Shown in pieces: positions 928-13,128 of a stretch of 36,085 bases of DNA (the stretch's first letter is position 1; every line of letters starts with the position of its first letter). The stretch is from NCBI GenBank assembly GCA_016125215.1, contig WGMF01000047.1:1-36085 (forward strand), read 5' to 3'. Source of the stretch: Phycisphaera sp. (GTDB lineage Bacteria > Planctomycetota > Phycisphaerae > Phycisphaerales > Phycisphaeraceae). Position numbers and translations under genes: made by a program. The notes beneath the pieces are model-generated. The model ran no database searches, was not told where the DNA came from, and was given only the letters and a program-made list of their open reading frames with translations.

Positions 928-2571
928 CTATTCTTCAGGCAGCTTTACGGTGGCAACCTTCAGTATCCCCGGCCGGGCGGTCAGGCGATTGGTCAGGGCC
1001 TGGGGCAATTCAGTGTCGCACTTGAGGACCATGAGTGCGGTGACGCGGCCGTCGATGTCCCGTCGGGAGATGGCCATGTCGGCGATGTTGACGCCGGCCG
1101 TGCCGAACTCGCTGCCGATCAAGCCGATCATCCCGGGGCGGTCTTCGTTCTGGACCAGCGCCATCGCGCCGGCGGGGACCATGTCCATGTGGTAGCCGTT
1201 GATCTCGACGATGCGGGGTCGCATGTCCCGGTAGACGCGGCCGACGATTCGGCGGGTGGTGTCGCCGGACTCGACAGTGATGGCCAGTTGTTCGCCCGCG
1301 AGTTTGTCTTCCTCGATGGTGATGGTGCGCAGGCCGATGCCGCGTTCCTTGGCGACGTGCGCGACGTTGACGATGTTCAGTGGCGTGTCGAGGTGGCTTT
1401 GCAGGAGGCCGATGAGCACGGTGCGTTCGATCGTGCCCGCGGCGGGGAAGAGGGGCTTGCCCGTGAGTTCGATGGCAACCGAGCCGAGGCCTTTTTCGAG
1501 CATGGGGGTGATGAGCGTGGCCATGCGGCGCGAGAGGTCGACGAAGGCGCTTTGGATCGGGTCGAGGTCGACGCGCAGGCCGCCGGCGTTGATCGCGCCG
1601 CGCACGCCCTGTCCGCGCAGGAACTCGATGAGTTGCTCAGCCGCCGAGACGCTCACGGCTTTCTGTGCTTCGACCGTGCTCGCGCCAAGATGCGGGGTGG
1701 TGAGGATCTTCGGGTGGTTACGCAGCGGCGAATCCGCGGCCGGGGGTTCTTCGTCGTACACGTCGAGCGCTGCGCCGCCGCACTGTCCGGCGTTGACCGC
1801 TTCGAGCAGGGCTTTTTCATCGACCACGCCGCCGCGCGAGGCGTTGACCACCATGACGCCCTTTTTGCAGACCTTGAACGTGTCTGTGCCCAACATGCCG
1901 CGCGTCTGCTCGGTGAGCGGGACGTGGAAGGTCAGCGCGTCGCACTCGGGGAGGATGGCGGTGAACTCCTTGCTCATGCGGACCTGCCCGTCGAGCGCGG
2001 TGGGGGCGTTGTAGATCGGGTCGTAGGCGACGACCTTCATGCCGAAGGCCAGCGCGCGTTCCGCCACGGTGCGTCCGATGCGGCCGAAGCCGACGACGCC
2101 AAGTGTCAGACCGTGCAGTTGCCTGCCCATGAACTTGGAACGGTCCCACTTGCCTTCGCACATGGTTTTGTACGCCGGCCCGACCTGGCGTGCGAGGGCC
2201 ATGAGCAGCGTGAAGGCGTGCTCGGCGGTGGAGATCGTCGAGGCCTCAGCCGAGTTCATCACGAGGATGCCCTTGGCGGTGGCGGCTTCGACGTCGATGT
2301 TGTCCACGCCGACGCCCGCGCGGGCCACGGCCTTGAGCCGACCGGGGTTGGCAAGAATTTTGGCCGTCACCTGCACGCCCGAGCGCACGATCATGCCATC
2401 GTGTTCACCGGCGATCTTCGCCAGTTCGTCCTCGGAAAGTCCGGGCTTGTTGACCAGCTCGGCGTCGGGCTGGGCCTTGATGTAATCCAGCCCCTCGCTG
2501 GCGAGCTTGTCCGCCGCGAGGATGCGGAACGTGCGGGCGGAGGTCGAAGACATCGTTTGGGTCGCGGTCAT
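928..2571 (-). CDS. serA: D-3-phosphoglycerate dehydrogenase
   Basis: It oxidises 3-phosphoglycerate to 3-phosphohydroxypyruvate with NAD, the first step of serine synthesis, in the cytoplasm. The 547-residue length matches the long SerA type: substrate/NAD domains (about 15-325), an intervening domain (about 330-455) and a C-terminal ACT domain (about 460-547). Visible motifs are the NAD-binding GFGRIG (161-166), the catalytic arginine in NASRGG (R246), the glutamate in DVYDEEPP (about E275) and the histidine in TPHLGAS (H294). The ACT domain keeps the NEDRPGMIG strand-turn typical of serine-binding regulatory modules, so feedback by serine is plausible (inference). The start is ATG 2571; the next ATG (MSSTS) six codons on is an alternative. 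It follows hemL on the same strand across a repeat-filled gap. Confidence 0.95.
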   Translation of the reverse strand: MTATQTMSSTSARTFRILAADKLASEGLDYIKAQPDAELVNKPGLSEDELAKIAGEHDGMIVRSGVQVTAKILANPGRLKAVARAGVGVDNIDVEAATAKGILVMNSAEASTISTAEHAFTLLMALARQVGPAYKTMCEGKWDRSKFMGRQLHGLTLGVVGFGRIGRTVAERALAFGMKVVAYDPIYNAPTALDGQVRMSKEFTAILPECDALTFHVPLTEQTRGMLGTDTFKVCKKGVMVVNASRGGVVDEKALLEAVNAGQCGGAALDVYDEEPPAADSPLRNHPKILTTPHLGASTVEAQKAVSVSAAEQLIEFLRGQGVRGAINAGGLRVDLDPIQSAFVDLSRRMATLITPMLEKGLGSVAIELTGKPLFPAAGTIERTVLIGLLQSHLDTPLNIVNVAHVAKERGIGLRTITIEEDKLAGEQLAITVESGDTTRRIVGRVYRDMRPRIVEINGYHMDMVPAGAMALVQNEDRPGMIGLIGSEFGTAGVNIADMAISRRDIDGRVTALMVLKCDTELPQALTNRLTARPGILKVATVKLPEE

Positions 2572-10654: not shown

Positions 10655-11623
10655 TTACCTGGCTATCTCCCGGACCAGCGCGTGCAGCCTGCGCAGCGAG
10701 GGGGTCTGCACGAGGTAGTGTCTCAGGAAGTGATTGAAGACGTGGCCGTCGCCGCCGCCGAGCCAGTAGTCGTCCCCCAGGGGTTGCGCGGGTTCTTCGC
10801 TGAGCGCGAACATCACGTGGTAGCACGTCTGCTCCGGCGTCCACCTGCCGAACCAGATGTCGCCCATGCCCGCGTTGATCGAATCGGGCATCGTGGTGCG
10901 CCATTCGAGGTAGTGCTCAGCCAGGGCCAGGCCCATGCGGTCGGGCCGGTAGACGAGCAGGCCCGAGTTGAAAAACCGGTACGCCAGCCGCCACGCGCAG
11001 CCGGTCGGCGTCAGGTCGTGTTCAAGCTTGGCAAAGACCTCCTGGCACGCGGCGGGCACGTCCCTGGCTTCGTTGCGGTGGTCGTGCATGTAGAGCGGCG
11101 CCGCGTCGTCGCCCCCGCAGAATCGCGCGATGCGCTGCGGGTGTTCAAAAAACGCGGTGTCCGGGTCGAGCACGATCACGCGCTCACACCGAGCGCCGGC
11201 CATCGGGTAGAGCAGTTTGCCGATGGGTTTGTAGTTGCTTTTGCGATAAAGCTCGCCCAGTCTCGGGAACTTTTCGAGCGTGGGCTTGAGCCAGGTCGGC
11301 TCCTCCCGCCATCGGCACCACCTTGCCCCCGGGAATTGGCGGTCAACAAGACCGCGGTCTTCATCGTTCAACGACCCGTCGTCCGCGACGGTGAGCGCCA
11401 GCCGTGTGTCTTGTTGAAAAAATCGCAGCAGTGATCGGATGGCCACCAGTCCGATGAGCAGGTCGCGTTTGCAGAGCAGGACAAAGACCTCGGCCGAGGC
11501 GTCACCGGGTTCAGCGGGGGGCATGGGCGTGGCGGACGTGATGGCGCGCACCGCGCTCTCGATGCGCCGCTGGTCGATGCGGGCGCGCAGGCGGTAGGGG
11601 AGCCATGTCGGTGCCTGGGGCAT
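10655..11623 (-). CDS. glycosyltransferase-like protein (GT-A type DxD)
   Basis: A 322-residue protein from ATG 11623 (MPQAPTWLPYRLRAR). A longer in-frame start at 11728 would place its first 35 codons inside a nested inverted-repeat element, so I reject it. The strand EVFVLLCKRDLLIGLVAIRS resembles the first strand of GT-A enzymes, TVADDGSLND is a DDGS-like nucleotide loop, and ERVIVLDPDTAFFEHP is a DxD metal site after a hydrophobic strand, as in GT8-like families. A late FNSGLLVYR segment is also typical of such folds. The exact family is not recognised. It lies downstream of the ligase-like gene on the same strand, across the repeat. Confidence 0.7.
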   Translation of the reverse strand: MPQAPTWLPYRLRARIDQRRIESAVRAITSATPMPPAEPGDASAEVFVLLCKRDLLIGLVAIRSLLRFFQQDTRLALTVADDGSLNDEDRGLVDRQFPGARWCRWREEPTWLKPTLEKFPRLGELYRKSNYKPIGKLLYPMAGARCERVIVLDPDTAFFEHPQRIARFCGGDDAAPLYMHDHRNEARDVPAACQEVFAKLEHDLTPTGCAWRLAYRFFNSGLLVYRPDRMGLALAEHYLEWRTTMPDSINAGMGDIWFGRWTPEQTCYHVMFALSEEPAQPLGDDYWLGGGDGHVFNHFLRHYLVQTPSLRRLHALVREIAR

Positions 11624-11630
11624 GGGTCTT

Positions 11631-11776
11631 AGAAAGCGTGTGAGAAGCTTAGGGGTGCCACTGGCGGCTTGTCCGCCAGTGCTGTCAACGAACGGCTTTT
11701 TCACTGGCGGACAAGCCGCCAGTGGCACCCAAATACATTCCGTCGCGATTACAGTCTAGCTTCTCACACGCTTTCT
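11631..11776. mobile_element. nested palindromic element (MITE- or BIME-like), 146 bp
   Basis: Outer arms AGAAAGCGTGTGAGAAGCT (11631-11649) and its perfect complement (11758-11776) enclose a second perfect 29-bp inverted repeat (11653-11681 / 11702-11730) with a 20-base centre. Each inner arm is itself a hairpin: CACTGGCGG-CTTGT-CCGCCAGTG (11659-11681 and 11702-11724). TTA borders GAAAGC on the left, and TTA also follows GCTTTC on the right, a possible 3-base target duplication. It fills the whole gap between two same-strand genes, and its right arm touches the upstream gene's stop codon (11776-11778). It has no coding capacity. Confidence 0.8.
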
Positions 11777-13128
11777 TACATCGCGGGTAAGTAGTTTTCG
11801 AGTTCTTTTTCGTCGGGGACCTGTTCGAGTTCGGGGAGGACGCCGGTCTCGGTGACCTGCTCGGACGCCGCGACGTGGTAGACGTACCCCGCCGTGGCCA
11901 GGCCTAGGATCGCCACGAGGTATCCCGATTCGACCGACTCCATACCCACGAACTGGCTCGACGTGCAGAAGCTGATGAGGCTGATGATGCACATGTGACC
12001 GAAGTAGACGGGCCAGACCATGCGCTTGGCGGTGCGTGTGAGCGTGCTGCGCCAGACCTTCCACATGGTGCCGGTGTAGAAAAGGATCAAGCCGAACAGC
12101 CCGAGGAAGCCCGAGTCGGCCCCGGTCTGGAGGAAGAGGTTGTGGACGCTCTTGCCCAGCCCAAGGCCGTAGCGCGGCGCGAGGATGTTGAACCCTCGAG
12201 GCCCGACGCCCAGCGGGTAGTCCTTCATGCAGCGCCACGCGGCCCCCCAGGTGATGAACCGGCTGGCGGCGGATTTATCGAGGTTGTTCTCCCCGACGAA
12301 TATCGTCATGAACTCGGCCCGGACCCCCTCGCCCGCCAGGCGCAGCGCCACGATGACGCCGAGGATCGCCAGGAACAGCGTCAGGAGCTTGTTGGGCAGC
12401 GAGACCATGGCCACAATGAACAGGATGATGGCGACCATGATGAGCCCGAGCATCCCGCCACGCGAGAAGGAGAAGAGCACGACGTGGACCATGCACGCTG
12501 CGCCGACGAAGCAGCCGACCTTGATGAGGATGCCCCACCACTTGGTCGGCGCGTTGAGTCCCATGAAGAAGCACAGGGGCACGGACATGGCCATGACCAT
12601 GGCCACGCCGTTGTTGTCGATCCCGCCGAAGCCGCGGAATAACAGGTAGTAAGGGTTGTCGAGGTACTGGACGTTGAAGTTCCACGCGAGGTAGCCCAGG
12701 CCCGCGGTGAGCACCCAGGCAAAGGCCTGGATGCGTTTGGGCGTGGTGATGAGCGTGATCGCCACGAAGGCCATGACGACAATCTTGTACTGGACGGTGA
12801 AGTGCTCCGAGGCGCGTGAGTTGAAGACGGGGCTGAGCGACCAGCCGATGGCGGTGCCCGCGAGGTAGAGGAGCAGGCCGACCATCGGCAGCCAGACGTA
12901 ACGGAAGATCGACCACGTCCCGGTGCCCTTGAATATCCAGCCCACGAGCGTGGCCAGGCCAACGTAGAGGCTGAATCGCGTGTCGTTCTGGCTGAACGCC
13001 CAGAACCAGAGCGACTGCGGGCGGATCACCGCGAAGAGGTAATAGACCATCAGCCCGAAGAACGGGTTGAGCCAGCCATACCCCAGGCCGAGCAACGCAA
13101 CGAAATAGGTGAAGTAATATCCGAGCAT
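11776..13128 (-). CDS. O-antigen ligase/polymerase-like membrane protein
   Basis: A 450-residue polytopic inner-membrane protein with about ten to twelve hydrophobic segments and a large loop before the last group. It starts MLGYYFTYFVALLGLGYGWL. The opening (LNPFFGLMVYYLFAVIRPQSLWFWAF) and the loop motifs SRFITWGAAWRCMKDYPLGVG and SVHNLFLQTGADSGFLGL fit the Wzy_C/WaaL superfamily. They recall the putative O-glycosylation ligases found beside exosortase systems (recognised by reading, not by search). Such enzymes transfer lipid-linked glycan to an acceptor, or polymerise it, on the periplasmic face. The C-terminal ~35 residues are acidic and soluble. The stop codon abuts the nested palindromic element. 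The gene sits in a minus-strand run with two glycosyltransferase genes. Confidence 0.8.
   Translation of the reverse strand: MLGYYFTYFVALLGLGYGWLNPFFGLMVYYLFAVIRPQSLWFWAFSQNDTRFSLYVGLATLVGWIFKGTGTWSIFRYVWLPMVGLLLYLAGTAIGWSLSPVFNSRASEHFTVQYKIVVMAFVAITLITTPKRIQAFAWVLTAGLGYLAWNFNVQYLDNPYYLLFRGFGGIDNNGVAMVMAMSVPLCFFMGLNAPTKWWGILIKVGCFVGAACMVHVVLFSFSRGGMLGLIMVAIILFIVAMVSLPNKLLTLFLAILGVIVALRLAGEGVRAEFMTIFVGENNLDKSAASRFITWGAAWRCMKDYPLGVGPRGFNILAPRYGLGLGKSVHNLFLQTGADSGFLGLFGLILFYTGTMWKVWRSTLTRTAKRMVWPVYFGHMCIISLISFCTSSQFVGMESVESGYLVAILGLATAGYVYHVAASEQVTETGVLPELEQVPDEKELENYLPAM

Follow-up and report, generated by a model that had tools for sequence, protein, structure and literature searches.

The nested double palindrome that fills an intergenic gap in the window (the whole stretch of 36,085 nucleotides of Phycisphaera sp. 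DNA analysed here) is very probably (about 88%) an IS5-family MITE that carries a complete REPIN, as judged from sequence comparison within its own genome and across related genomes.

Results

Structure and borders of the element

The original prediction, made from the letters of the window, had described a perfect 19-bp inverted repeat enclosing a perfect 29-bp inverted repeat. Both were recovered, the outer one at 11631-11649 and 11758-11776 and the inner one at the positions of the two REP units in Table 1. Each inner arm is itself a hairpin with the CTTGT loop that had been noticed, CACTGGCGG-CTTGT-CCGCCAGTG. At up to three mismatches, the 19-base outer arm has two matches in the window (shuffle mean 0.02), as does the 23-base hairpin (shuffle mean 0.00). 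Folding gave z = -14.66 and -14.95 on the two strands, with none of 200 shuffles equally stable.

Aligned copies from the same genome are alike from GAAAG to CTTTC and unlike beyond, so the outermost A/T pair is part of a 3-bp duplication and the element proper spans 11632-11775. As the end of the element, 18 bp of the 19-bp repeat therefore hold, while the 19th pair belongs to the TTA duplication, and the length of 146 bp first given for the unit is corrected to 144 bp.

Table 1. Coordinates of the predicted composite element and of the adjacent genes in the window
Feature	Position	Strand	Remarks
Predicted IS5-type MITE, 144 bp	11632..11775	+	17 own-genome copies, 143-145 bp, ends at ≤4 mismatches
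Target duplication, left (TTA)	11629..11631	.	identical 3-bp flanks in 14/17 copies
Target duplication, right (TTA)	11776..11778	.	also stop codon TAA of gene 11776-13128 (-)
Left terminal inverted repeat, 18 bp	11632..11649	+	perfect complement of 11758-11775
Right terminal inverted repeat, 18 bp	11758..11775	-	pairs with left end 11632-11649
Predicted REPIN, 78 bp: two inverted REP units and 20-bp spacer	11653..11730	+	76-78 bp core at 18 further places
REP unit 1	11653..11681	+	hairpin 11659-11681, loop CTTGT
REP unit 2	11702..11730	-	hairpin 11702-11724
Upstream gene, O-antigen ligase family (Wzy_C)	11776..13128	-	Pfam PF04932, 62.4 bits, cut-off 31.7
Downstream gene, 322 aa	10655..11623	-	start ATG at 11623

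Copies and target duplications

The genome assembly comprises 4.04 Mb in 58 contigs, the window being contig C32. With the 146-base query, this genome yielded at least 17 near-full-length copies (at least 141 of 146 bases aligned, 85-100% identity), copy counts being lower bounds because 40 of the 99 first-look candidates were scored. A single genomic copy, which had been named as evidence against a mobile element, is thus not what the genome holds. Besides the full copies, there are shortened ones and many places that match the inner part alone, approximately bases 20-104. Among the 40 relatives drawn for comparison, none belonged to the same genus, and a site lacking the element was not encountered.

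The TTA on both borders had been proposed as a target duplication, and the copies bear this out. Of the 17 copies, 14 have the same 3 bp on both sides (TCA in six, TAA in five, TTA in two and ACA in one, 13 of these 14 being TNA) and three do not; the middle flank base agrees in 15 of 17, and the left flank reads TNA in 15 of 17. This count covers copies with both ends at no more than 4/17 mismatches and omits five truncated or degenerate copies (L018, L019, L021, L022 and L023). When the flanks were re-paired at random 10,000 times, a mean of 4.3 and a maximum of 12 identical pairs were obtained, compared with the 14 observed. Duplication of a 3-bp TNA target is a trait of IS5 subgroups (IS1031-type). 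No title or abstract beginning in our literature search states this rule, and TNA does not occur as a word in the accessible part of PMC5756416.

An IS5-family partner for the outer layer

We searched 400 genomes of the order, evenly drawn from a larger group, for TNA followed by the element end with up to two mismatches. Matches occurred in 28 of the 400 genomes, with at least two matches in 12 of these; a reversed control pattern gave at most one match per genome among the matches listed. In ZRK34 (Planctomycetales bacterium, G046), which belongs to the same order, two ends face each other across a total of 849 bp, flanked by TAA on both sides. The ends of this IS agree with those of our element at 17/17 and 15/17 bases, the first 17 bases of the left terminal repeat being identical to the left IS end. 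Its transposase is encoded in two overlapping frames, with DUF4096 in one and DDE domains in the other; against the NCBIfam model transpos_IS5_3, the first frame scored 119.7 bits (cut-off 110) and the second 91.4 bits, which is below the cut-off.

A MAG labelled Verrucomicrobia contains a second IS (L132:391-1286), which is 890 bp long, has perfect ends and a transposase in two frames, and shows 66% identity over 64 residues to the 849-bp IS. Its flanks differ (TCA and TAA), perhaps through recombination or an assembly effect. In G160, a third IS is cut by the contig edge, with a matching end beside the start of the same transposase. Overall, such ends were present at two of ten scanned transposase loci, namely ZRK34 and the contig-edge copy of G160; a 56% identical transposase copy in G141 is without them. 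As an observation on the enzyme itself, the transposase is split over two frames in three separate copies (L112:525-1317, L132:433-1261 and L148:1501-2294), an arrangement that would be more in keeping with programmed frameshifting than with decay.

In the own genome, nothing matched the protein encoded by the first frame of the ZRK34 transposase at a threshold of E 1e-4. The four PF01609 transposase loci have no outer end within four mismatches, one five-mismatch match lying in L081 and L078 being located at a contig edge, and the end pattern gave six solitary matches besides the composites, compared with 10 for the reversed control pattern. Since no IS with matching ends was found in this assembly, the mover is either absent or lies in an assembly gap. 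A full-length IS with matching ends, of the kind that the original prediction called for, was located in ZRK34 and not in the own assembly.

The absence of such an IS from the own assembly is also what could speak for a mover from an unrelated IS family that shares ends and TNA duplication by chance. We consider this very unlikely, given that both full-length elements with such ends (849 and 890 bp) are IS5-family or close to it and that, in the copy of G160 cut by the contig end, part of the same transposase adjoins such an end. The mover is thus assigned to the IS5 family and, within the scope of our searches, is not part of the own assembly. Together, the copies, the target duplications and the ends of the ZRK34 IS support the proposal of a small non-autonomous mobile element that would be moved by a transposase encoded elsewhere.

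The inner layer as a separate element

Eighteen other places that we examined in the own genome carry this core of 76-78 bp, and at 15 of these both outer ends are clearly absent: the two sides of the 15 core-only places show 6-9/17 mismatches to the outer end, compared with 0-4 in the 17 composites. The other three places (L030, L269 and L272) have a five-mismatch end match on one side, with alignments extending towards the end at two of them, and may be decayed composites. As a control, 400 random stretches were taken from element-bearing loci; 373 had at least six mismatches, four had five, and 23 had 0-2, the last presumably having fallen on real ends.

Two inverted REPs are described as a mark of RAYT genes in the accessible part of PMC2817692, and one RAYT of the own genome is associated with the core. 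At L064, on contig C53, a frame at 928-1611 (-) matches NF047646 with 89 bits (cut-off 80) and is accompanied by REP units in inverted orientation at 880-906 and 1523-1549, one identical to ours and the other with a single difference. The 27 bases at 11655-11681 of the window are identical to L064:880-906, which adjoins the RAYT gene. A RAYT flanked by such units accounts for one of five NF047646 matches and one of seven PF01797 matches in the genome. The four bases at the hairpin foot are GTGC and deviate from the canonical GT[AG]G given in the consulted part of PMC6006769; the unit is therefore REP-like by its RAYT association and not a canonical GTAG REP. Based on these findings, the inner palindrome is an element apart from the outer one, namely a REPIN for which the genome encodes a RAYT of its own, and this layer was not contained in the original prediction.

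One could also regard the whole 146-bp unit as a single REP/BIME-type element spread by RAYT, the outer arms being merely an extra palindrome, in keeping with the REPIN structure of the core and the REP-flanked RAYT in the genome. This is very unlikely in view of the identical flanks at the outer ends (14/17), the match of these ends to those of an IS5-family IS and the 15 of 18 core-only copies that clearly lack them. Moreover, the RAYT locus has REP units and no outer end within five mismatches.

Returning to a REPIN inside a MITE, we compared free and composite cores (43 cores recovered; four of 47 loci gave no pair). Both have the same length of 76-78 bp, and spacer similarity is 0.83 among composite cores versus 0.55 among free cores. 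Composite cores cluster on the tree, requiring 8 changes versus 13.8 after shuffling of the labels (a count as low as 8 in 1 of 500), on a weak tree of 78 columns with few firm forks. The likeness of the spacers and the clustering would fit a single capture, after which the composite spread as a whole.

Separately, the REPIN core (window 11649-11734) matches the microRNA family mir-9186 (RF04226) on both strands with 41.7 bits (E ~8e-7), which is below the gathering score of 73.

Effect on the neighbouring genes

The element had been said to touch the stop codon of the upstream gene, and indeed the right TTA, read on the minus strand, is the TAA stop of that gene (Table 1). The upstream protein also scores 105 bits against TIGR03097 (exosortase-associated O-glycosylation ligase), below the cut-off of 188. 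The downstream protein of 322 aa is without a Pfam or NCBIfam match at E 0.01. A false 35-codon extension of the downstream gene had likewise been foreseen: the open reading frame 10655-11728 (-) of 357 aa begins within the element, and the ATG at 11623 gives 322 aa. This makes the locus an example of nested mobile elements producing false gene starts. Open reading frames of at least 80 aa that touch the element are this extension, the upstream gene with its stop at the edge and a frame that overlaps and starts at 11756; among the frames of this size, no transposase gene lies inside the 144 bp.

Removal of the element and one TTA joins the flanks to GCG ATG TAA GACCC ATG on the minus strand, i.e., the stop of the ligase-type gene, five bases and the start of the next gene. 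Because the TTA target is the upstream stop codon and was kept, neither gene was broken. We infer that two genes formerly 5 bp apart are now separated by a very stable hairpin.

A conserved regulatory hairpin, fixed at this position as a terminator, attenuator or structured RNA, could likewise account for a very stable fold on both strands between two same-strand genes. A terminator-like site is present at 11681-11696 (two such sites in the region versus a shuffle mean of 0.6), but it lies on the + strand, opposite to both genes. Such a fixed hairpin is extremely unlikely, as many copies lie at unrelated sites and no Rfam family reached the gathering score. The eight sub-threshold Rfam matches up to E = 1, mainly microRNA hairpins, were regarded as chance. 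A by-product effect of the mobile element on the neighbouring genes could nevertheless occur.

Recurrence of the nesting in related genomes

Short elements with paired ends were found in ten genomes (G000, G006, G012, G033, G042, G058, G099, G102, G141 and G144), two of which, G006 (Phycisphaeraceae bacterium SJ399) and G012 (Phycisphaeraceae bacterium OFTM12), belong to the family of the window. Among 28 such elements listed from outside the own genome, 19 have identical 3-bp flanks. Seven of the ten genomes, the own included, have at least one element with inner inverted arms of 27-31 bases (up to five mismatches), each folding as a hairpin; shorter arms occur in G006, G058 and G141 as well as in single elements of G012, G042 and G144. 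The arms fall into four unlike sequences, A (own genome and G012), B (G033 and G042), C (G099 and G144) and D (G102).

For family B, 12 core-only places were examined in G033; 11 have the arm pair, all without ends (at least six mismatches), and the twelfth has one arm. Family C is represented by 15 places, six with no end, five with both ends and four unresolved. Family D has 36 places in G102, with both ends at nine, one end at 15 and none at 12, and the flanks are identical in three of the nine places with both ends. Several end-less D places look like decayed composites, and this likely decay, together with the 3/9 identical flanks, makes G102 weak evidence. A count in G102 with a 40-bp flank (both ends 2, one 21, none 13) was discarded as misleading, the right end lying about 25 bp beyond the REPIN in several copies.

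RAYT association differs between the families. Units of family B flank or adjoin a RAYT match in two of 14 G033 loci and lie beside one of seven matches in G042, and no RAYT with REP on both sides was found for C or D (6/6 matches in G099, 3/3 in G144 and 3/3 in G102). In G006, a D-like unit (3/25 mismatches) lies about 430 bp from a RAYT match (seven of nine matches read). In G012, REP A or B stands beside none of five RAYT matches, despite the family A composites; its two composite cores group apart (98/94), on a tree of few columns. These comparisons give good support for a recurrence of the nesting in families A, B and C and less support in D; a link to a RAYT is shown for A and suggested for B.

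Two further loci deserve description. At L250:924-1226 (G033:C7:111423-111725), a weak RAYT match with REP B units to either side lies in a 1283-aa open frame, which looks as though a RAYT unit had turned into part of a larger gene. G141 contains, at L197-L218, IS5-type MITEs of 159, 82, 63 and 54 bp with common sequence and several TNA duplications, a size set that is a deletion or insertion series. We considered the 54-63-bp and 82-bp variants as empty MITEs and rejected them, as they may equally be internal deletions of the 159-bp element. They are not used as evidence for the direction of nesting, and the insert of the 159-bp element may or may not be a REPIN.

Discussion

We propose that the element was inserted at a TNA, here the TTA of a stop codon, with duplication of the 3 bp, by a transposase of the IS5 family (IS5_3 type) that worked in trans and recognised its 18-bp ends. 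Most likely, a resident RAYT had earlier placed the REPIN into an older, smaller MITE; alternatively, the MITE may have formed around a REPIN. The outer transposase would then have spread the composite as a single unit. This order of the nesting steps is inferred. No empty MITE, i.e., ends without the REPIN, was found in the own genome with the end pattern at up to two mismatches. The presence there of the composite rather than an empty MITE may be due to chance, to an advantage of the long hairpin or to a RAYT preference for palindromes.

The occurrence of at least four unlike REPIN-like families within such elements in the order, and the spread of the composite in the own genome, raise the somewhat doubtful possibility that IS5-type MITEs have acquired REPINs as their interior on repeated occasions. 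If so, the advantage could come from the long inner hairpin or from being moved by two enzymes, one of them acting on double strands (the IS5 transposase) and the other on single strands (the RAYT), and the same explanation may hold for the REPs within palindromes of A. variabilis and H. neapolitanus. The question thereby becomes testable: either REPINs are in MITEs by chance, or they are retained as the hairpin helps the MITE.

Comparison with known systems

Like other IS5-family MITEs, the element is short, non-coding and multicopy, with IS5-like terminal repeats and 3-bp duplications that are mostly TNA; unlike them, more than half of its interior is a complete REPIN that also occurs alone. 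It shares with the REPINs and RAYTs described in the accessible parts of PMC3116915 and PMC2817692 the two inverted REP units with a spacer and the copies elsewhere in the genome. It differs from them in the foot, GTGC here versus the GT[AG]G stated in the same part of PMC6006769, and in that some copies ride inside a MITE.

The closest parallel is found in PMC3733652 (2013), which, in the sections available, reports REP dimers regularly within a palindrome in A. variabilis, T. roseum and H. neapolitanus; in two of these three species, the palindrome without REPs was not found. Those palindromes are described there as targets, and their source is not named in section 7. In contrast, the outer palindrome here would be an IS5-type MITE with target duplications, for which an IS with matching ends exists. 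By analogy, this suggests that the palindromes of that study are candidates for MITEs. No title or abstract beginning in our literature search states MITE-REPIN chimaeras. Here, the palindrome-in-palindrome pattern is connected with two transposition systems that can be named, and several genera show this nesting with inserts that differ. Each layer is of a known kind; the novelty lies in the connection with both enzyme families, in the duplications and in the recurrence in other genera.
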